DNA of 64,000 nucleotides from Norana najaformis. Lineage: Eukaryota > Annelida > Clitellata > Crassiclitellata > Hormogastridae. The notes beneath the pieces were generated by a model. That model did not search any database. It had not been told where the DNA came from and saw nothing but the letters and a program-made list of their open reading frames with translations. The DNA lies in NCBI GenBank assembly GCA_964023275.1, contig OZ029919.1:34325865-34389864 (forward strand), in the 5' to 3' direction. A program made the position numbers and the translations under genes. Below, in pieces: positions 5,118-62,900 of this stretch (positions are counted from its first letter, which is position 1; each line of letters starts with the position of its first letter).

Positions 5118-7700
5118 CTAAAACTCTGTTTCTCTCTCAGACGACGCAGTGTCGTTGGTTTTCCCGATGACGACAATGTTGGGCATTTCCGGCATCTTGG
5201 GGAAATCCATAGGATCTGCGGGAAAGCTTTCTAGAAAGATGTCGCTGTTTGAATCGCCAAGACTGTCCATGCGTTGAAAGTCAGGAAACATCTCAGGCTC
5301 TTGAATCCCAGGTTCAACGTCGGCTGTGAAGGATATCGAATGCAGAATGGCAGAGTTGGTCTCCGACCCTGACTCGCTTGCCGTGAGGTACTCCGACTCG
5401 TCCGACAGATTCGAGTCGGTGTCGCGGGGAACGTGAATTGGGTGAGCTTCGAAGTCGAAGGCGATCGACGCGTCAAAGATGATAGACTCGGTGTGCATGC
5501 ACTCGGCTTCGATCACTGTGACGCAGTTGCCAATGTCGAGTAGTTCGAGCAGTTTGAGCACGTTCTGCTGTTGTGCCTTGTACTGGTCGCGAAGCCGTGA
5601 CATCTGTTGCACGCCGTACTCGCGGATCTTGAGGACCTGAGCGTTGTAGTTTTCGCGCATCTTCTCCACCTGATGCGAGCGATAGTCCTTGAATTTGCCG
5701 CGCCGGACACCGTAGCTTTCGCGCAGCTTGTCCATCTGCTGTGTGCAATTGTCCTTAATACGCGCCGTCTGGCAGGCGTAGTGCTCGCGCATGCGTTCCA
5801 GGTATTGCAGAACGCTCGTGACTGTCGCTTGTTTGTACGTGCGCAGCTTATCAATGCGCGAATGTCGAAACGCCGAGAACTGATCGATTTTGGCTGATTT
5901 GAACGCGGACAACTGATCCATCTTCGCCGTGCGGTACGCGCTGAACCTGTCGATCTGCGCCGCCTTGTAGTCCTGTATCGCTTCGAGGACTTCACGGATG
6001 CTCTTGCGTTTCTTGCGCTCCTTCGAGCTACAGACAAACGCCAGATAACGGATGATACCGATGATGACGGCTATGAAGAAGAAACCGGTTGCTGTCAGAA
6101 AACCGAGGATTATGCTCTTCACTGTCACCGTCGACATGACTTGATAATTTAACTGGAACTCGACGCTGACTGTGTCATTTCCGTACTCGTTTGCTGCGAT
6201 ACAGCGATACGTGCCACCTTCTTTTCGTGTCACGTACGTGATGTACAAGCTCCCGTTGGGCAGGACGAACATTCGGTCCTGTTGCTCGTACTGGTGTACG
6301 TAGGAATCCACACCCAATAGCAACAATCTTTCAACCAGCACTCGCTCCGCATTCACCTCTGAGTACGCTATCGTCAGGTTTCTGTTTGTTACCCAAATGA
6401 ATTGAGACGGCTGATATCGTGATGTAGCGCAGTCCAAAACAGCAGACGAACCAAGGCTGTGCTGTGCATCTTTCGTGTAGTCGAGAATTCTGGGTTTTCG
6501 ACAGTCAAATAGATCAGAAGTCATATTTCTTACCGCCTCTTCCGCGTCCCAACAGATTGGTCCCACTTTCAGCGAATTCCGAAACATGCCCTCCAACGTG
6601 AGAAACTCCAGAAACGAAACGCAATTGCATGACCACGGATTTCCAGAGATGTCCAACACCTCCACCTGTTTCAGAGTGCTGAACATAACCGACTCGAGAG
6701 AAGAGAGATTGTTGTCTCTCAAGTCAATGTTTCTCAACTGGGTGAGGTTGCTGAAGACAAGACTGCTAATCGAACTCAATCTTGAATTGTGTGCTAGCTG
6801 TAAATGCCTAAGACTGTTCAAACCGGTAAAGAGATTTTCAGAAATACTGGTAAGATTTTGCAGGTAACTCATTTCAATCGTGTCCAGACTGGTCAGATAT
6901 TGAAATGCAAAGTCGGGAACAAAGCCGATGGGGTTACCGGTAATAACAAGTGTTAGCAGGTTTGGCAAACTGGTGAACCAATCTGGATCGACGGTTGACA
7001 GCCGATTCCAGCTGAGGTCAAGGACCTGCAGATATCTCAGCTGTCCAGATATAGAAAACTGAGCAAGAGAATTCGAGGACAGGCTGAGCTCTCTCAGGAA
7101 AACATCGCCCGACGTCACGTTCACTGCGAACTCATCGATCTGATTTCCAGCCAAGTCAAGTCGCTGTAAATTGGCCAAATTGTCCAGGAATGTTTCCGGG
7201 ATGTGGACCAAAGCGTTTTCGCTCAGGTCCAGTACTGAAAGACTAGAAAAAAGGGTAAATTTGTCTACATTGCTAATCCGATTTGCCGACAAATACAACT
7301 CCTGCAACGGTGACTTGATACCCGGCAGAAAATCATCCAAATCATTGTGGTCAAGTGAGAGACTGCGAAGATGAACATTGTGACTAAACGCGTTCGCTGA
7401 TATATTCGACATCAAGTTGTGACTCAAGTCGAGATGTCGAAGCTCCGTAAACTTGACAAAGTCATCATCATTGACTTCGTAAATTTCGTTGGCACTCAGG
7501 TTGAAGGAATGCACGTCGACAGCTGATGTGTTTGGGACCACCGTCAGATTCAAACCGACACAGCTCAGCGAGCGAACCGCATCGTCGCACGTGCATCCAG
7601 CTTCACTGCAGGTAACCACTTCTAAGTTGCCAAGCGGCAAAAGTGTAAGAATGATGAGGTACCACAGAAGTGCAGAAGTGTCCAGCTTATCGCATGGCAT
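5118..7700 (-). CDS. LRR-Ig single-pass membrane protein with hendecad cytoplasmic tail
   Basis: An 860-residue type I membrane protein, probably a cell-surface receptor or adhesion molecule. Residues 1-31 form a signal peptide (LLWYLIILTLLPLG core). An LRR N-cap (CSEAGCTCDD) follows, then about eleven leucine-rich repeats from 65 to 355, an LRR C-cap (NPWSCNC...C383...C400) and one Ig domain at about 405-517 (Cys424, Cys500 in GTYRCIAANEYG). The transmembrane helix is 527-552 (IILGFLTATGFFFIAVIIGI), followed by a basic stop-transfer ERKKRK. Residues 570-720 form about thirteen 11-residue units of the type (A/D)Y(K/R)xxQhDxhx. The tail is acidic and Ser-rich. I chose the Met just before the signal peptide; the frame stays open 57 codons further, but that part has no signal sequence and crosses a good splice acceptor. 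The LRR-LRRCT-Ig-TM order is shared with many neuronal LRRIG proteins. I do not assign an orthologue. Confidence 0.88.
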   Translation of the reverse strand: MPCDKLDTSALLWYLIILTLLPLGNLEVVTCSEAGCTCDDAVRSLSCVGLNLTVVPNTSAVDVHSFNLSANEIYEVNDDDFVKFTELRHLDLSHNLMSNISANAFSHNVHLRSLSLDHNDLDDFLPGIKSPLQELYLSANRISNVDKFTLFSSLSVLDLSENALVHIPETFLDNLANLQRLDLAGNQIDEFAVNVTSGDVFLRELSLSSNSLAQFSISGQLRYLQVLDLSWNRLSTVDPDWFTSLPNLLTLVITGNPIGFVPDFAFQYLTSLDTIEMSYLQNLTSISENLFTGLNSLRHLQLAHNSRLSSISSLVFSNLTQLRNIDLRDNNLSSLESVMFSTLKQVEVLDISGNPWSCNCVSFLEFLTLEGMFRNSLKVGPICWDAEEAVRNMTSDLFDCRKPRILDYTKDAQHSLGSSAVLDCATSRYQPSQFIWVTNRNLTIAYSEVNAERVLVERLLLLGVDSYVHQYEQQDRMFVLPNGSLYITYVTRKEGGTYRCIAANEYGNDTVSVEFQLNYQVMSTVTVKSIILGFLTATGFFFIAVIIGIIRYLAFVCSSKERKKRKSIREVLEAIQDYKAAQIDRFSAYRTAKMDQLSAFKSAKIDQFSAFRHSRIDKLRTYKQATVTSVLQYLERMREHYACQTARIKDNCTQQMDKLRESYGVRRGKFKDYRSHQVEKMRENYNAQVLKIREYGVQQMSRLRDQYKAQQQNVLKLLELLDIGNCVTVIEAECMHTESIIFDASIAFDFEAHPIHVPRDTDSNLSDESEYLTASESGSETNSAILHSISFTADVEPGIQEPEMFPDFQRMDSLGDSNSDIFLESFPADPMDFPKMPEMPNIVVIGKTNDTASSERETEF

Positions 7701-7832
7701 CTTCAGACGAATTGTGACAATTGTCGGCCAAGGAGGAGGCACACAAGACTGCAAAGCGACCGTCAACCGTCTGCTGCTCCTTCTCGCTTCTTTTGATTCT
7801 GGCAAAATTATTCCAAAACTAATTTTTAAATC
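7701..7832 (-). other. 5' UTR part of the LRR-Ig exon, with splice acceptor
   Basis: Reading leftward on the minus strand, TTTTCTATTTGCAG ends at 7833 and gives a pyrimidine-rich acceptor. The large coding exon probably begins at 7832, so a non-coding 5' exon should lie to the right. A second possible acceptor (GCTTTGCAG) lies nearer the start codon, at about 7752. Which is used cannot be told from sequence. Confidence 0.45.
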
Positions 7833-7966
7833 CTGCAAATAGAAAACATTAGATTGCTTATCTTGCATCAAATTCAGTTATAAATCACATCACTCATTGA
7901 CATCACAAGATGATGCTGATGACAAATAGGAATATATCATTTCCTCAATGCTGACTGTCCGATAAT

Positions 7967-16875: not shown

Positions 16876-18351
16876 CTGCCAAACCCGATCGTTGTGAGTG
16901 CAATGCCCAGACAATATTGCTTCTTATCGACTACATTAACTTTTTATGGAGATTTTATATGGTGTGCCGTTTTCCCGATGAGGCTGCGGCAGTCTTTGCC
17001 TGCAGAAACGTCTTCTGTTGACTGTTCCCATCTTCCGGCGTAGTCTGGTGCCCTGCGCTGCTGGCGCGGCCAGTTATCGTTGGCCGTTGCTGGGTTTCAT
17101 GCATATTGCATGGAGGCGACCATCGTGGCTTTCGGCAACGCCCCGTGCACGCAATTCCATTTCACCGCAGCCTGCCATAATAGGCAGCGAAGCCCGTTGC
17201 GCAGAGACAACAAACAGATTGAATAGCAGTCTGGAACTGTGCAGAGAATTCAATAAAACCGTACACGCTTCTTCGAGTCTTCTCGTAAGCAGGATTCGTC
17301 GTGCGCACACAATTCTGTCTTTTCTGTGTGAGCAATTCAAACGCAGTTTCATGATCAGTGTTTGTTGCACGGCCGAGACGCGATATCCTTCAGGAAGTGT
17401 TTACGATCCAGCGTTTACCGACGGGAGTCCGGTAACGACAGAGCGTTGCATCGCAATGTGGGACGGAAGCAGCTGGTAGTGTCGCGGTCATCGGCGGAAT
17501 GCTATTGACGCGGCTGGCCCTCGTCCTGTCTCGCGAGCTGTCTGGGTCAGCTGCCATTTTGCAGGCAACGTCGCTGGACTCGATGCCAGCGCTGCTTCTG
17601 ACGTCCACTTCATCGCAATTGCTTCGTATTCCTGGGCCAAAAGGTCCAGTGTACATCAGGGCAGCATGTAGCATTCGTGCTGGCTCGTGTTGTGACAGCA
17701 AAAGTGGCTCTTCCCGGTTTTATTACTGAGAATTGACAGGCTTGACTGTACCAAGAAGACTAGAAAAACTGTTCCGTGCGAAAAGTACAGGGCCTTCTAC
17801 TTGTTCGGTTTCAAGGGAAAATTGCTGTTTACTGCATAGTCGTGAAATAACTTGAATGTTGCATGACGAGACAGATAAAACTGATTGTTTCTGAATAAGA
17901 ATAGCCACGTTGATCGACAGGAAACTGTGAGAGAAGTGACTCGTTTGGGAGGAAACATACTTGCTCCCTCGAGTCTCATTGCATACTGCTAGCGTTTCAA
18001 GTTTCTTGATACAGAAAGCGTTAGTTGGTTTGGATGGTAGACTCCAAGACGTGACATCTTTTGCAGTGTTTAACAAGTAAGATGAATGTACTTCCTATCA
18101 TTATTTGCTGAGCTGCTTTTGTGTTTTATAATATTTTTTCAATCTCTGATTGATGCAGGCCTTTTTGCTGCACTGTGACGTAATGGGGAACGGTGTACAT
18201 CAATCTGCTGGGTGGATTCATGAAAGAGGGCATTGACACTACTTCTGGTCTGTGCTGTGGCAGGTAAAGAGTAATAGTAATAATAACATTTGTTCAGTGA
18301 TATCTTGGCATTTGTTATGCCCTGGCCAGGTTTTACAGTCTCTTAGAAGTT
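16876..18351. other. Unassigned, GC-richer block
   Basis: 17018-17730 is richer in CpG than its surroundings and holds overlapping open frames on both strands (153 codons plus, 103 codons minus). Neither shows a domain, repeated motif or clear splice borders. Could contain an unrecognised exon; I cannot support one. Confidence 0.4.
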
Positions 18352-21218
18352 TAGTTCTGAACCATTTGTAGTCTAGTTCCAGACCATATGTAGTTTAGTT
18401 CTGAACCATTTGTAGTCTAGTTCCAGACCATATGTAGTTTAGTTCTGAACCATTTGTAGTCTAGTTCCAGACCATATGTAGTTTAGTTCTGAACCATTTG
18501 TAGTCTAGTTCTGAACCATTTGTAGTCTAGTTCCAGACCATATGTAGTTAAGTTCTGAACCATTTGTAGTCTAGTTCCAGACCATATGTAGTTTAGTTCT
18601 GAACCATTTGTAGTCTAGTTCCAGACCATATGTAGTTAAGTTCTGAACCATTTGTAGTCTAGTTCCAGACCATATGTAGTTTAGTTCTGAACCATTTGTA
18701 GTCTAGTTCCAGACCATATGTAGTTTAGTTCTGAACCATTTGTAGTCTAGTTCCAGACCATATGTAGTTTAGTTCTGAACCATTTGTAGTCTAGTTCTGA
18801 ACCATTTGTAGTCTAGTTCCAGACCATATGTAGTTAAGTTCTGAACCATTTGTAGTCTAGTTCCAGACCATATGTAGTTAAGTTCTGAACCATTTGTAGT
18901 CTAGTTCCAGACCATATGTAGTTTAGTTCTGAACCATTTGTAGTCTAGTTCCAGACCATATGTAGTTAAGTTCTGAACCATTTGTAGTCTAGTTCCAGAC
19001 CATATGTAGTTTAGTTCTGAACCATTTGTAGTCTAGTTCCAGACCATATGTAGTTTAGTTCTGAACCATTTGTAGTCTAGTTCCAGACCATATGTAGTTT
19101 AGTTCTGAACCATTTGTAGTCTAGTTCCAGACCATATGTAGTTTAGTTCTGAACCATTTGTAGTCTAGTTCCAGACCATATGTAGTTTAGTTCTGAACCA
19201 TTTGTAGTCTAGTTCCAGACCATATGTAGTTTAGGTCTGAACCATTTGTAGTCTAGTTCCAGACCATATGTAGTTTAGGTCTGAACCATTTGTAGTCTAG
19301 TTCCAGACCATATGTAGTTTAGGTCTGAACCATTTGTAGTCTAGTTCCAGACCATATGTAGTTTAGGTCTAAACCATTTGTAGTCTAGTTCCAGACCATA
19401 TGTAGTTTAGTTCTGAACCATTTGTAGTCTAGTTCCAGACCATATGTAGTTTAGTTCTGAACCATTTGTAGTCTAGTTCCAGACCATATGTAGTTTAGTT
19501 CTGAACCATTTGTAGTCTAGTTCCAGACCATATGTAGTTTAGGTCTGAACCATTTGTAGTCTAGTTCCAGACCATATGTAGTTTAGGTCTGAACCATTTG
19601 TAGTCTAGTTCCAGACCATATGTAGTTTAGGTCTGAACCATTTGTAGTCTAGTTCCAGACCATATGTAGTTTAGGTCTGAACCATTTGTAGTCTAGTTCC
19701 AGACCATATGTAGTTTAGGTCTGAACCATTTGTAGTCTAGTTCCAGACCATATGTAGTTTAGTTCTGAACCATTTGTAGTCTAGTTCCAGACCATATGTA
19801 GTTTAGTTCTGAACCATTTGTAGTCTAGTTCCAGACCATATGTAGTTTAGTTCTGAACCATTTGTAGTCTAGTTCCAGACCATATGTAGTTTAGTTCTGA
19901 ACCATTTGTAGTCTAGTTCCAGACCATATGTAGTTTAGTTCTGAACCATTTGTAGTCTAGTTCCAGACCATATGTAGTTTAGTTCTGAACCATTTGTAGT
20001 CTAGTTCCAGACCATATGTAGTTTAGTTCTGAACCATTTGTAGTCTAGTTCCAGACCATATGTAGTTTAGGTCTGAACCATTTGTAGTCTAGTTCCAGAC
20101 CATATGTAGTTTAGGTCTGAACCATTTGTAGTCTAGTTCCAGACCATATGTAGTTAAGTTCTGAACCATTTGTAGTCTAGTTCCAGACCATATGTAGTTT
20201 AGTTCTGAACCATTTGTAGTCTAGTTCCAGACCATATGTAGTTAAGTTCTGAACCATTTGTAGTCTAGTTCCAGACCATATGTAGTTTAGTTCTGAACCA
20301 TTTGTAGTCTAGTTCCAGACCATATGTAGTTTAGTTCTGAACCATTTGTAGTCTAGTTCCAGACCATATGTAGTTTAGTTCTGAACCATTTGTAGTCTAG
20401 TTCTGAACCATTTGTAGTCTAGTTCCAGACCATATGTAGTTAAGTTCTGAACCATTTGTAGTCTAGTTCCAGACCATATGTAGTTAAGTTCTGAACCATT
20501 TGTAGTCTAGTTCCAGACCATATGTAGTTTAGGTCTGAACCATTTGTAGTCTAGTTCCAGACCATATGTAGTTTAGGTCTGAACCATTTGTAGTCTAGTT
20601 CCAGACCATATGTAGTTTAGGTCTGAACCATTTGTAGTCTAGTTCCAGACCATATGTAGTTTAGGTCTGAACCATTTGTAGTCTAGTTCCAGACCATATG
20701 TAGTTTAGTTCTGAACCATTTGTAGTCTAGTTCCAGACCATATGTAGTTTAGTTCTGAACCATTTGTAGTCTAGTTCCAGACCATATGTAGTTTAGTTCT
20801 GAACCATTTGTAGTCTAGTTCCAGACCATATGTAGTTTAGTTCTGAACCATTTGTAGTCTAGTTCCAGACCATATGTAGTTTAGTTCTGAACCATTTGTA
20901 GTCTAGTTCCAGACCATATGTAGTTTAGGTCTGAACCATTTGTAGTCTAGTTCCAGACCATATGTAGTTTAGTTCTGAACCATTTGTAGTCTAGTTCCAG
21001 ACCATATGTAGTTTAGGTCTGAACCATTTGTAGTCTAGTTCCAGACCATATGTAGTTTAGTTCTGAACCATTTGTAGTCTAGTTCCAGACCATATGTAGT
21101 TTAGGTCTGAACCATTTGTAGTCTAGTTCCAGACCATATGTAGTTTAGTTCTGAACCATTTGTAGTCTAGTTCCAGACCATATGTAGTTTAGGTCTGAAC
21201 CATTTGTAGTCTAGTTCC
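18352..21218. repeat. 2.9 kb satellite, 44-bp dimeric unit, about 65 copies
   Basis: Each unit is two related 22-bp halves: TAGTTCTGAACCATTTGTAG+TC and TAGTTCCAGACCATATGTAG+TT. Three places (about 18503, 18794 and 20398) have an extra first half, giving a 66-bp unit. The start of the first half comes in three versions (TTTAGTTCTG, TTAAGTTCTG, TTTAGGTCTG) arranged in runs. Sequence identity is very high throughout, which implies recent amplification or conversion. Stops occur in all frames. No protein or RNA gene is implied. Confidence 0.97.
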
Positions 21219-27450: not shown

Positions 27451-28119
27451 AAGTCTGATGCTAATGTTCTTTTATAAGTTCCCTAGACTTTTAAATGTAA
27501 CAATATATATATCCATGCAATGCTGTGCATATATATGTAAGTATATATATACATATATATATATACATTATTTGTGTGATGGTTTGAAGACCACAGCAGT
27601 ATTTAATATCATATATCGTGATACATTATACAGTACTTGGAATGGATCTCAGCCTTGTGCAAGAGCTATATAATCCGGGATGATGAACGTAACAAGGACA
27701 AGCAGGTGCATTTAAGGAGTTGTTTACGGAGATCCGTTTCAAAGGAGCCTTTGTGATGCGATCCCAATTCATTTCTTGTTGGGACATGTTTTCTCTTTCC
27801 GACAATTTTCCTCTGCGTTGATGAAATATTCTGCATCCCCCCCATTGTCCGAACGCGCTTCTATGGTGATACAATATACAGACAGATGTTTTCTGTACTT
27901 TTTCGGTAAAATTTCCTCTTTTTTGCATTTTTGCAAGTTTGCTGCATGAAGTCGTGCTTTGAGAAGTTCAGATTAGGCGCTATATAAGTGTCTTGAAACG
28001 TTCAGACATGTAGGTCTACCGGGTAGTTGTGGATTAAAAGCTTGGAGAAACAAAGCAGACAAAGAGCTACAAGCGGATATAGGGCCTGGCCTCTGGTTCT
28101 AACAAACAGTAATTCATTT
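27451..28119. other. Unassigned, with TA/ATAC microsatellite and a retroposon 3' end
   Basis: TA-rich tract at about 27505-27570. A GGCGCTATATAAGTGTCTTG end at about 27977-28005 is another truncated retroposon tail. Confidence 0.45.
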
Positions 28120-28480
28120 GGGTCACGGTAGCTGATTGGTTAGCGCTGGGCATGTATGTGGGTCACGGTAGCCGATTGGTTAGCGCTGGGCTTTTATGTG
28201 GGTCACGTAGCCGATTGGTTAGCGCTCGGCTTGTATGTGGGTCACGGTAGCTGATTGGTTAGCGCTCGGCTTGTATGTGGGTCACGTAGCCGATTGGTTA
28301 GCGCTGGGCTTGTAGCTGATTGGTTAGAGCGGTCGGCTTATAACGCGGAGAGTACGGTTTCGAACCTCCTGTGGGCCGGTTACTGTGTGGGACCTTGAGA
28401 AAGTTCTTCACACGCAACTGCCCAGAGCCATCGATTGATGCTTAGTCTCATTAGATAGTGGCGCTTAATCAATGCAGAAA
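28120..28480 (+). repeat. tRNA-Thr-like SINE with tandemly amplified head
   Basis: Five units of about 40 bp (GGGTCACGGTAGCTGATTGG then TTAGCGCTSGGCTTGTATGT) precede one complete element. The complete copy has GATTGGTTAGAGCGGTCGGC (A box), TTATAACGCGGAGAGTAC (anticodon region) and GGTTTCGAACCTCC (B box with one extra T). The body has GGGACCTTGAGAAAGTTCTT, the CORE-like block, and ends with GCCATCGATTGATGCTTAGT. Each unit repeats the region from the tRNA 5' end through the anticodon stem, so each carries an A box but no B box. Confidence 0.75.
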
Positions 28481-30139: not shown

Positions 30140-30142
30140 TTA

Positions 30143-30261
30143 CACTGGCCAACACATAATTTGTTGCCTCAAATGTTAGAACTGTTTCTGGGTATATTTG
30201 ACCTGCTGATTCCAGAAAAGGCACCAGTTTTCTCCCAGCAGGTCTAGTTTTCGAGATATAG
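30143..30261 (+). repeat. Left terminal inverted repeat of the transposon
   Basis: Perfect at the outer 12 bp, then interrupted matches ending at GGTCTAGTTTTCGAGATATA. This is the 3' side relative to the gene. Confidence 0.75.
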
Positions 30262-30458
30262 AACATTATGCCATATACCAGTCCTTGCCTCTGCTCGCCC
30301 ATAAAACATAAGGCTATAGCTATAATTATGTAGTGCTCAATTTATTATGTGATACACTAAATAAACATAATAATACAAATACTTAAAAGAAAATGGTAGT
30401 ACCTGAAACTGTACTTATATGATACCAAACAGAACAAGTTTGTTATAAAAATTTCAAG

Positions 30459-32162
30459 TCATTCGACACCGAAGAAGCTCCTTTTGTACGATTTCCGAGT
30501 GTGGCATCTGCCGGAACAATCGCGCATAATATTCCAGCAATAGTCTGCCATCATGTGTGCATCCCATCTTCCTTGATATCGATTTTCCATTGTTTTGATG
30601 TCTTGGTGAAATCTTTCACCTTGCTCTTCGCTGAAGTCACCAAGATTCTCTGGAAAGCGATCTAAGTGACTGTGGAGATAATGGACTTTAATGCTCATGT
30701 TGCAGCCAAGATTGTTGAAATGAAGAAGCATATCCTCTACTAGTTGTGCATAATTGTCTGCCTTCTTGTTGCCAAGAAAATTTTTAGTTACAAGAACAAA
30801 GGAAGACCAGGCACAAGATTCGATTTCATTCATTGATGGTATGAAAAGTGGGTCATTCATAAGTTGCCTGATCTGTGGACCATCGAAGATTCCAGCCTTC
30901 AATTTTTCCATTGTAATTCCTGGTAACTTGTGTACTATGTATTCGAAGCATGAACCTTCTTTATTCAAAGCCCTGACAAATTGTTTCATCAGGCCTAGCT
31001 TTATATGTAGTGGTGGCAGTATGATCCTATCTCGTGCCACCAAAGATTCCTTGATTACATTTTGAGCTCCAACCACCATGTCTTTCCTCGAAGGCCAATC
31101 TTTTCTTGTCCAATGTTCATGCTTGGCTCTACTGTCCCAAAGACACAAAAAGCAGGGATACTTTGTGTAGCCACTTTGTTGACCAAGGAGGAAATTTACC
31201 ATCTTCAAGTCTACACAAATTACCCATTGATGCTCTTTGTATTTTATCTTTTCCAGTACTAAAGAGATGGCATTGTACTCTTCTTTCATCCTGGTGGAGT
31301 GACCGATTGGAATAGAACCAAATTTGTTACCGTTATTTAAAAGCACACATTTCAGACTACGTTTTGAACTGTCGATAAAAAGACGCCACTCATCTGGGCT
31401 GTAATCCGACAGACCAATTTTCTTCAATAAGTTGCTGATGTCATTACAGAATACTAGGTTGTTGTCTTCGGTAAAGAATGGCAGCAAATCCTTTTCTCTG
31501 TTTCTATAAATTGTAATTTTCGTTCCAGGCTGAAGTGCATTCTTTTCCTTTAGTCTGGACGCAAGCAATTCAGAGGACTCTTTGGAAAGATTTAAGTCCC
31601 TGATCAGATCACTCAACTCTTTTTGGTCAAAACGTTCACTGTGTGAAGTTGATTGGAAATCACTGTCACTGCCCCCACTTTCTTCACTTTCGTCATCTTG
31701 TCCGATATTGGACATGCAAGTGTCATCGTCTGAGAGCTGAGGTAGTTTGCGAAAAGGTGGAACTGGTACAATATCCGAATGCGGAACAGGTCTCCTGGCT
31801 GAAGGTATATCAGGGTAAGACAACTTGTGACGATTATTTCGATTGATGCCTATGATATTAACCATACAAAAGTAACAGTCGTCGAAGTGGTTTATCTGTT
31901 CCCTCCAAACCATCGGTACACCAAATTTCAGGCAGCTTCTCTTTCCAGTTGTCCAGTGGCGCAATTGTTCAATACAAGTTTTGCATACTGTATGAGGAGC
32001 CCATTGCTTATCTTGATCTCCAAGTTTGACACCAAAATAACCTACATATGCTCTTTTTACAAACTCAGAAATCGGTTTCCTGTTTGCTTTTAGTGTGTAT
32101 TCCCCACAAATGTAGCAGAATATGTCTGGATGGTTAATGCAGCTCCGTCTGGAGGTAGCCAT
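30459..32162 (-). CDS. DDE-like transposase of the CACTGG-ended transposon
   Basis: 567 residues, single exon, no internal breaks. N-terminal cysteine pairs (CYIC at 16-19, CKTC at 60-63, CYFC at 96-99) look like a zinc-binding DNA-binding region around FVKRAYVGYFGVKLGDQDKQ. Residues 143-175 are acidic and Ser-rich. An RNase H-like core is suggested by LFIDSS (Asp264), VICVDLK (Asp318) and GDFSEEQGERFHQD (Glu512-516), with CFLC at 337-340 and conserved HIKLGLMKQFVRAL at 386. I recognise this as a family present in many copies in invertebrate genomes (for example cnidarians and arthropods) and usually left unnamed. The terminal repeats around it here support a transposase role. The DDE assignment is inferred from motif order only. 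Confidence 0.75.
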   Translation of the reverse strand: MATSRRSCINHPDIFCYICGEYTLKANRKPISEFVKRAYVGYFGVKLGDQDKQWAPHTVCKTCIEQLRHWTTGKRSCLKFGVPMVWREQINHFDDCYFCMVNIIGINRNNRHKLSYPDIPSARRPVPHSDIVPVPPFRKLPQLSDDDTCMSNIGQDDESEESGGSDSDFQSTSHSERFDQKELSDLIRDLNLSKESSELLASRLKEKNALQPGTKITIYRNREKDLLPFFTEDNNLVFCNDISNLLKKIGLSDYSPDEWRLFIDSSKRSLKCVLLNNGNKFGSIPIGHSTRMKEEYNAISLVLEKIKYKEHQWVICVDLKMVNFLLGQQSGYTKYPCFLCLWDSRAKHEHWTRKDWPSRKDMVVGAQNVIKESLVARDRIILPPLHIKLGLMKQFVRALNKEGSCFEYIVHKLPGITMEKLKAGIFDGPQIRQLMNDPLFIPSMNEIESCAWSSFVLVTKNFLGNKKADNYAQLVEDMLLHFNNLGCNMSIKVHYLHSHLDRFPENLGDFSEEQGERFHQDIKTMENRYQGRWDAHMMADYCWNIMRDCSGRCHTRKSYKRSFFGVE

Positions 32163-32638
32163 AACCTTAAGGATGTTCGCATCTGAGGAATTAAGTGACT
32201 AACCTAAAAAATACTAAGAACATGTAGTTATTTAATGTTCACATTCACAGATTGTTCTTGCGACCAACTCTTAATATGCCCTAAGACGACTGCGGCTGCT
32301 CTAGCTTTCAGGAGGCGGTTTATATAGGCTATAAATGCTGACTTCAGCATAATCTATTTACATAGTTCGAAACCATGAAACGCTGTATAAGCACAAATAA
32401 ATTCTAAATGAGGCCATGAATTTAGTGCTGAGTAAGCTGTAGGCTACGGAATAGTTATTTCGTTGAATCAGCAATATCTCAGCACGCGGCAAGATATGCT
32501 GATTTCACATTATAAGGATGTAGGCATTATATGAATCAGCAAGAATTATAATTAGCCATAAATAAAGCTTATTATGACATTTTAGTTTTGTCAAAGACAT
32601 CGTTTAAAGAGTGGACTGGGTTTTCTTTACAAAATCGA

Positions 32639-32767
32639 CGATATCTCAGAAACTAGACCTGATGCACTCAATCCAATGACATTTTCTGAATCAGCGCCCA
32701 AAATTACCCCAAGAACAGGTCTAAAACCGAAGGCAACAAGAAAAAAAATTTTTTCTGTTGGCCAGTG
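32639..32767 (-). repeat. Right terminal inverted repeat of the transposon
   Basis: Mirrors the left end, from ATATCTCAGAAACTAGACCT to the outer TGTTGGCCAGTG. It contains a T-rich insertion relative to the left repeat. Confidence 0.75.
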
Positions 32768-32776
32768 TTATCAATG

Positions 32777-32815
32777 GCAACAAAAACAACCACAACATGT
32801 GGTTGTTTTTGTTGC
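32777..32815. other. Perfect 18-bp inverted repeat with 3-nt loop
   Basis: GCAACAAAAACAACCACA, ACA, TGTGGTTGTTTTTGTTGC. It lies 7 bp outside the transposon's target duplication. Confidence 0.9.
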
Positions 32816-32844
32816 TATTATAGTATTGCTATTATTTTTATCTG

Positions 32845-59900: not shown

Positions 59901-62900
59901 TTGTTCATGCCACCGTCCTACCCCGGAGATAACGAAAACAACGAAGACGATGCGAACATAGATAACGCGATGCCGTCTGCCGTTAACAACACCGGATCGC
60001 TGGCAAAGAATCCGTTCCGCAATTTAACTGACAACTGCGCAAAGATCACCGCAAATTACTCCGAACCTGCTGATGCACTTGATGCCAGGAGAGTCCGCGG
60101 AATGTTGAAGAAGACGTCCACGGGAAGCGTTCCAAACAGCGACGAAGACGAAGAGGATGAGGAGGACGGAAGGGGCTTCGGATCGATTGTCTCCACCGTC
60201 GAAGCGGAGGACAGTTGCGGATCGCAGAGTGTAGCAAACGATCGAAGCGATAAGGACGGAAGCGTGGCGAAACAGCCGGACGGGAAGAAAGATATCGAAG
60301 CGGATGAGTCCCTTGGGAAAACGACGATGCTGAAGAGCGAGAGTAAAGAACACAGGTAGGACACGTATTTCTTACTAGTAGGACAGGTATTTACAACAGG
60401 TATAGGACAGGTATTTATTACAGGTAGGACAGGTATTTACTACAGGTAGGACAGGTATTTATTATATACAAGTAGAACAGGTATTTATTACAGGTAAGGC
60501 CGTTTGTCTATTATATAGCGCTGTTGTCGGGTTCTGAACAGGAGCTATATAAGATTCTATAAGGTTTGTATAAGGTTCTGTTTAAGTTAAAATGTACTTT
60601 GTGAAACGGTGTTTTTTTAATAAATATAAATAACCAATGTTATATTTTAATTCTGCACACGTGTGTTGCGAAGTTCCTTCACAGTAAATGGGGAATTTTT
60701 TTATTGCACTCTAGTAGTAGTTCCAATGTTTAACGACATCTTATGGCATCAAAGGCCGTTGACATCGCCCTCCTCCTTTATCCAGGCTTGGGTCTGGCAC
60801 CACCCGAACACAGCAGTGGCGGAGTTAATTGCACACTATTCGTCCAAGTGCAGTTTCAACAATTGGAGGCATAAAGGGTGTCCTCTTTTGTGGAGATCTA
60901 GAAGGTCGTAAAGGTCATCAATTAAAGCAGATCATGTGGGACCTGGTTTCAAAGACCTGATCCAGTCGGGAATTCTGTGCTCTGCACGGGTTCCCAGATC
61001 CCAGATCCTTGAACACAGAAGCTAGGCACTTCTGTGTGTTGCTGATCAGAGTACATGCTGTCCTAATGTCTGGCACCGGATGGGGACAGGAATGATGTAC
61101 AGCTCCCACGTGTTTGTTGTGACAGCTAAGTCGAGACCTGTATGTATCTATAAATTTATATAGCGCATTTTCGTCTATACAGCTACCAACTGTCTCTGGT
61201 GACGGCCAAGGATGCAGCCATTGTCTGGCGGAGAGACAATGCATGTTTTTGGAACGCTTTTGATCTGCTCGGTCGCTTGTGTCATTTCATTCTCGACTTA
61301 AAACTTAACTTTTTCAAATTCCTTCAACCATAAGCTGCCTCTTTGTCTTAGTGGACTGACCTTCTAGATGTTGACCTGATTGCGTCTTGGTAATGGTGCG
61401 CCATCGGTTGATACCTTGTGCATTAGACACCGGCGCCATAGAAGTTATTAACTAACTAACTATTTATATAGCGCTTGTAAGAATATCTCAAAGACGATGA
61501 ATGAAAGTCTTAACTTGCGTGAATCAGCCATCCTTCCTCATTTCCTATATACATCCACCCATCCATACATCGATCTTTCCATCCATCCATGAACCTGCCA
61601 ATCCATGCTCCCTTCCACCCACCCACCAATCCTTCCTCCCCTAAATCCATCCATCCATCCATCCATACATCCATTCTTCCGTCCATCCTCTTCTTCATTG
61701 ATCGATGCGTCAAAACTTGTAGTCTGTTTCGCGATATCTATTCGCCGGATTCCAACGACAGCGGCATCCAGGCGGACGTGACGTCACAGACGAGATCGTC
61801 GCCAGGTGACGCCACCGGACATCGGCCCGTCTTCAGCAAAGATCGTCACGAAGTCTCTTCCGATAATCCGGAAAGGGAGTCGAGCAAAACCGGTTTTACT
61901 AGCAACATCTACCAGGCTGAGGCTTCCACTCCTCTTCAGCCGGAAATGAGTTCCTGCGACAATGGAAGCCTCAGTGTCGTCGCTAAAGATGCCAAGGTAT
62001 ATGGATGTTGTGATTTCTATGCTGATCAGCATGTGTGTATGTACATATATTTTTTTTATAGGTGCTATCATTTATTTATGTATGTACGTATGTAAATGTG
62101 TATGTATATATGTGTGTATGCAATTATGGCATATGTGTTTGTGCATGTGTCAAGCTATCTTTCATAGCTGCCGCGCTGTCTCTCCGTCTGACTTTTGGAT
62201 CTTGACCTGGAACCGAACCCTTTTGCCTATCGATTTTATTTTGACTGAGCGCGTGTGAATAAGCTGGTCCCCATGACGTGGCTTTCGTTGGGCGCTGTAG
62301 AAATCTCGGAATTACGATTACGATATAGTCTACAGTTTTACCTATTGATGTGTGTATGCATGTATGTTAATACATAAGCATGCATGCAAGCATACAGTAT
62401 ATGCATATATGTATGTATGAACATTTAAGTATGCCTGTATGTATGTATGTATGCATGCATGTATGTTTGTGTGATGTATGTATGTATGTATGTTTGTATG
62501 CATGTATTTGAACATTTATATGATGCACTATTTTCTATTATTATTATGATTATGAATATGATACTTCTGATGGTGATTATTATTATTATTATCATTATCA
62601 TTATTTATTATCATTATTACTATCATTAATATTATTAATGTCACCGTGAAAACAAATCCGTTCCGGACGGGACAATGAGCAGATCGCCCCACCCCGTCCA
62701 CAACCGATGATGGTCACGCTTGGATGCACTCGAATGAGCAGCGAATTTACTAACGGCGATCATCGATTAGGGCTTTGCCGGTTAAATGCCAATCCGATCC
62801 GATTGTCCGAGATAATTGTCCATCCATGATGGCGGCCATTAATTAGCGAAACGAATCAGAGTTTTAACGCGGAGGTTGGGACTTGTTTACAGACTGTCCA

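Follow-up and report, generated by a model that had tools for sequence, protein, structure and literature searches.

A recently multiplied, probably active Chapaev3-like CMC transposon in the genome of the annelid Norana najaformis

Chapaev proper duplicates 4 bp of its target on insertion, Mirage a 2-bp TA and Transib 5 bp; RAG1, the antibody-gene enzyme, is a distant relative of the Chapaev3 group. In the excerpts used here from two published accounts, the residues D, D, C(2)C, LH, H(4)H and E are given as the mark of Chapaev/CMC transposases (PMC4079192, PMC12730594). The first account, as excerpted, describes duplications of 3 to 4 bp for Chapaev in general and, for all Chapaev3 transposons examined in it, duplication of TWA between A and T; Chapaev3 genes are mostly single-exon, with two exons in Merrow and in Garfield, the latter a Chapaev3 element of 2,289 bp encoding 556 aa (PMC4079192). 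The excerpt of the second gives duplications of 2 to 5 bp across the whole clade, CAC ends and 3-bp duplications for EnSpm families, a 2-bp TA target duplication for ESTA, and C(2)C and H(3–4)H between the second D and the last E of Transib and RAG1 (PMC12730594). CNEST of Cryptococcus, according to extracts from its description, makes a 2-bp TA duplication, starts with CACGG and is ~7.2 kb long, and unclassified animal CMC transposases that group with CNEST form a clade beside Chapaev and Mirage (PMC12810828). An N-terminal Chapa zinc finger is attributed to Chapaev3, TransibSU and RAG1 in an extract from a further paper (PMC4411706). Our literature searches found no paper joining CACTGG with a terminal inverted repeat and a transposase and, by title and abstract, nothing closer than the Chapaev3, CNEST, EnSpm and RAG1-relative papers cited here, as excerpted.

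The DNA analyzed here (the window) is a 64,000-nucleotide stretch of the 608 Mb, 17-contig genome of Norana najaformis. It carries a 2,625-bp element that is very probably an autonomous CMC-group DNA transposon of the cut-and-paste type, with Chapaev3 as its best placement. The element would accordingly be a new addition to an already named animal group, Chapaev3 having been described as a class before.

Ends, transposase gene and a second family

The element occupies window positions 30143–32767 between two copies of TTA (30140–30142, with A just before, and 32768–32770, with T just after) and contains an uninterrupted gene of 567 codons, all at the positions given in a preliminary description of this DNA. 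End-to-end alignment delineated imperfect terminal inverted repeats on the left (30143–30259, plus strand), beginning with CACTGGCCAACA (30143–30154), and on the right (32641–32767, minus strand), ending with TGTTGGCCAGTG (32756–32767). The identical 12-bp termini of the preliminary description are present at both ends, but the inverted repeat is longer than had been claimed: counted from base 1 of each end in a gapped alignment, the arms measure 117 and 127 bp (128 and 138 bp with softer scoring), and their score was equalled by 2 of 459 random region pairs of the window (4 of 459 with softer scoring). Within the 64 kb, exact CACTGGCCAACA occurs only at the two ends of the element; with up to two mismatches there are 6 matches versus 5.2 expected by chance, and the four outside the element ends carry two mismatches each. 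A near-perfect hairpin with 22-base arms (32773–32819) lies 2 bases beyond the right target duplication.

A second family is present in the same genome. A 558-codon open frame adjoining copy L009, with 48% identity to the window protein across 570 aligned columns, has at least 76 copies without a stop among the best 78 of 6,535 candidates. The corresponding family-2 element is ~2,353 bp long, with imperfect inverted repeats of about 110–120 bp and with ends CACTGGTCAACA and CACTGGACAACA that are common to the reference copy (L038) and to all four others with both flanks; exact duplications occur in only two of five copies (TAT, TAA). Two family-2 copies, L038 and L042, perhaps carry 1–3 extra bases at the joint. 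Both family 1, to which the window element belongs, and family 2 have CACTGG...CCAGTG termini, in keeping with the CAC...GTG ends of CMC elements, and the proposal that the ends define a wider group is borne out by their occurrence in two families. In family 1, copy L033 carries an altered first base.

The transposase gene is a single open frame encoding 567 aa on the minus strand (30459–32162, stop codon counted in). Its N-terminal region (aa 1–110; 31833–32162, minus strand) probably binds zinc: Cys16–Cys19, Cys60–Cys63, His92 and Cys96–Cys99 are conserved between the two families, and the region gives a weak zf-AD match, below the cut-off of that model. Judged by this Cys/His pattern, it may correspond to the Chapa zinc finger. 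The remaining motifs, all on the minus strand, are the proposed catalytic residues Asp264 (31371–31373) and Asp318 (31209–31211), each at the end of a predicted strand, the C(2)C motif Cys337–Cys340 (CFLC, 31143–31154), the LH motif (PPLH) with His386 (31005–31007), the H(4)H motif His494–His499 (HYLHSH, 30666–30683) and the codons of Glu513 to Glu516 (30615–30626), among which the third proposed catalytic residue lies. This CMC signature (D264, D318, C337/C340, PPLH386, H494/H499, E513/E516) is kept throughout in family 2 and is invariant in the 29 family-1 copies read whole (30 were fetched, the window's own included). Of the catalytic spacing first proposed (Asp264, Asp318, Glu512–516), both aspartates, Glu513 and Glu516 are thus retained in family 2, but Glu512 is not; because it is replaced by Asp there, the catalytic glutamate is probably 513 or 516. 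The same motifs contradict the view that the protein is without the usual features of the CACTA group, as D, D, C(2)C, LH, H(4)H and E of CMC are all present, and, together with the A|TWA|T target described below, they match published Chapaev/CMC and Chapaev3 elements and so disagree with its description as an unnamed protein family.

Comparison with profile and structure databases was less informative. No model in Pfam or NCBIfam names the protein a transposase, and PDB sequence searches with it found nothing. Two structure models were both poor (pLDDT 33 and 47), and one of them was built from a single sequence, such that its Foldseek matches are meaningless; neither model gave a Foldseek match at E ≤ 0.001. 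A VIA-align search with the second model had no transposase, integrase or RAG1 chain among its best 50 matches, a result that excludes nothing. For the proposed RNase H-type transposase, support from structure is weak: predicted strands and helices follow an order compatible with RNase H, and the acidic residues are rightly placed, which suggests the fold, but in models of low confidence.

Copies, target sites and recent multiplication

The predicted further copies with the same ends were readily found. Scoring the best 77 of 6,416 first-look candidates from a protein query on the genome gave at least 77 near-identical gene copies, at least 72 of them without a stop, and all 77 matches span residues 1–567 at 99–100% identity. 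With the whole element as query, the best 40 of 1,157 candidates were scored, and all 40 run from 1 to 2625 at 99–100% identity. These counts are lower bounds, skewed to the closest copies and leaving out short non-autonomous relatives, as the search skips very common words. Both ends are present in 24 of 30 fetched gene copies (the other six were excluded from the end counts), and among the 29 proteins read whole only the window's own is identical to it letter for letter.

Target sites were read at both ends of 44 copies, comprising the 24 fetched gene copies and 20 further copies taken from the 40 scored DNA matches, namely those not fetched before. An exact 3-bp duplication is found in 33 of the 44 (TTA 13, TAA 13, TAG 2, TAT 2, ATA 1, TTG 1 and TTT 1) and in 11 there is none; the TTA duplication at the window locus hence recurs in further insertions, and TTA or TAA makes up 26 of the 33. 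As a control, mis-paired flanks match in 3 bp in 26% of pairs, because the targets resemble each other. A precedes and T follows the target in 32 of 44 copies, 25 of which also have an exact duplication. Only 18 of 44 conform to A|TWA|TWA|T in its strict form, with TTA or TAA duplicated exactly between A and T. A-TWA-T is the common form of the target, and exceptions exist. (For L033, the end was placed one base out in the duplication and A/T counts, not in the end count.) Among the 11 copies lacking an exact duplication, six show an exact TNN duplication between A and T if 1–3 extra bases are allowed at one end, compared with a chance expectation of 10.8%. These six are L008, L020, L032, L043, L061 and L069; the extra bases seen between duplication and end are T, TT, TT, TTT, ATA and GTA, and some of these joints may be 4-bp duplications instead.

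The search for empty sites gave one paralogous empty site and one nested insertion. The joined flanks of 24 copies were compared with the window and with the other flanks, and one pair, that of L018, matches elsewhere across the join. This insertion lies in a dispersed repeat, a copy of which without the element is present in the window (61256–61454, minus strand); 171 of 201 aligned columns are identical across the join, with a 2-base gap within the target stretch, right before the join. Two further copies of the repeat extend past the join by 4 and 20 bases. The cleaner case is L039 (G000:C4:16561200-16564700), where family 2 has inserted into a family-1 element: the left flank of the insertion corresponds to family-1 element positions 1097–1566 and the right flank to 1564–2256, so that the flanks share precisely 3 bases (TAT), which lie between A and T. 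Family 2 moved later than the insertion of that family-1 copy.

The recent activity suggested in the preliminary description agrees with the number of stop-free copies and with their small divergence. The 24 full copies differ by 0.55% on average in pairwise comparison (0.11 to 0.95%) and by 4 to 14 differences per copy from the majority, and 115 of their 131 variable columns are private to a single copy, as expected after a burst. Non-coding differences from the majority amount to 127 of 21,993 sites. If neutral change proceeds at between 3 and 10 per billion sites each year, the copies examined would be about 0.6 to 2 million years old. Synonymous and non-synonymous differences number 35 and 38, where ~23% synonymous would be expected under neutrality; in these copies, chosen by protein score, the synonymous excess leans toward selection on the protein. 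On these figures the transposon appears young and is probably active, and it is a good candidate for a still-working member because many near-identical intact copies exist.

Placement among CMC transposons

Target preference, ends, size and motifs, compared with published descriptions rather than by a tree, all point to Chapaev3. The element resembles Merrow, Garfield and Conan, as far as the excerpted account describes them (PMC4079192), in the A/T-flanked TWA, the CAC/GTG ends, C(2)C, LH and H(4)H, and a compact, mostly one-exon organization; both families here are of matching size, with 567 aa in 2,625 bp and 558 aa in ~2,353 bp, each in one open frame. It departs from them in its length of 2,625 bp, in its imperfect ~120-bp inverted repeats, in its one open frame as opposed to the two exons of Merrow and Garfield, and in the strict target form, the low frequency of which has slightly reduced our still high confidence in the Chapaev3 reading. 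Chapaev proper shares the CMC motifs and CAC ends, but the duplication here is 3 bp. Transib and RAG1 have C(2)C and H(3–4)H in common with the element (in the excerpted comparison, PMC12730594); Transib was set aside in view of the 3-bp duplications, as were Mirage and CNEST, the 2-bp TA of CNEST, Mirage and ESTA being at odds with 3-bp duplications in 33 of 44 copies and the 3-bp overlap at L039.

The alternative that deserves most weight, though we consider it unlikely, is a CMC transposon outside Chapaev3, belonging to a formally unnamed sister lineage comparable to the animal transposases that cluster with CNEST. In its favor, the extracts from PMC12810828 describe animal CMC transposases, as yet unclassified, that form a clade neighboring Chapaev and Mirage; the limited frequency of the strict A|TWA|T form also speaks for it, as does the fact that the likeness to Chapaev3 is one of description and not of protein alignment. 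CNEST itself belongs to the same supergroup, near Chapaev and Mirage, but in the extracts from PMC12810828 its 2-bp TA duplication, CACGG start and ~7.2 kb contrast with the 3-bp, mostly A-TWA-T duplications, CACTG ends and 2.6 kb found here, and the element fits the published description of Chapaev3. Somewhat less probable again is a more specific version, in which the element and family 2 would make up a separate, still mobile CMC lineage alongside Chapaev3, with an integration that leaves 1–3 extra bases at one end (6 of 44 copies); if this were true, the extra-base joining step might be akin to the untidy joints that the related RAG recombinase makes.

Beyond these, a classical CACTA/EnSpm element is very improbable. 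The CACT start, the 3-bp duplication and the CMC motifs are shared with that group, and CAC ends with 3-bp duplications are given for EnSpm families in the excerpt of PMC12730594, but the complete ends read in both families are CACTG rather than CACTA, the target preference is A-TWA-T, the gene is small, compact and single-exon, and no CACTA-type transposase model is among the Pfam matches. A domesticated host gene lying between repeats by chance would account for the open frame and for the synonymous excess, the latter in copies picked by protein score; this explanation is scarcely credible against at least 77 gene copies, both ends in 24 of 30 fetched copies and in all 40 scored DNA matches, the target duplications and the empty site.

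Proposed mechanism, wider searches and surroundings

For a Chapaev3-type element, transposition would begin with a transposase made from the single-exon gene, whose N-terminal Cys pairs probably serve to bind zinc as well as the element ends. The two transposase-bound ends would be paired, and a DDE core of D264, D318 and Glu513 or Glu516, with a zinc-binding insert formed by C337/C340 and H494/H499, would then cut them at CAC/GTG within the CACTG termini; the ends would be joined with a 3-bp stagger to targets of mostly A-TWA-T form, and repair of the stagger would produce the 3-bp duplication. The protein is without a name in Pfam and NCBIfam, yet is very likely a transposase, and at least 72 near-identical copies of it have no stop. 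With two young families in one genome, testing a Chapaev3-type transposase by experiment becomes practical. The group also bears on the origin of the relatives of RAG1.

Relatives were also sought more widely. Viral contigs scanned with the window protein (P0001) matched no pattern; the two-family alignment yielded 50 pattern-matching stretches, none encoding a relative. One of the viral pattern scans gave 0 stretches and others gave L001–L004 and L036–L037, which were rejected as relatives, being short matches only, in open frames of different make-up (the best, L002, has E 0.005 over 23 residues). In genome contigs, 27 stretches matched a pattern, with no relative among them, and none was found in phages.

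The rest of the window holds several other features. A 919-codon open stretch (5118–7877, minus strand) combines leucine-rich repeats with an immunoglobulin domain, which makes it similar to LRR-Ig proteins of the cell surface. A satellite-like array at 18348–21217 consists of ~65 copies of a 44-bp unit with 97% matches, and a 40-bp unit is repeated ~5 times at 28119–28314; by eye, the latter contains a tRNA-promoter-like stretch and may be SINE-derived.
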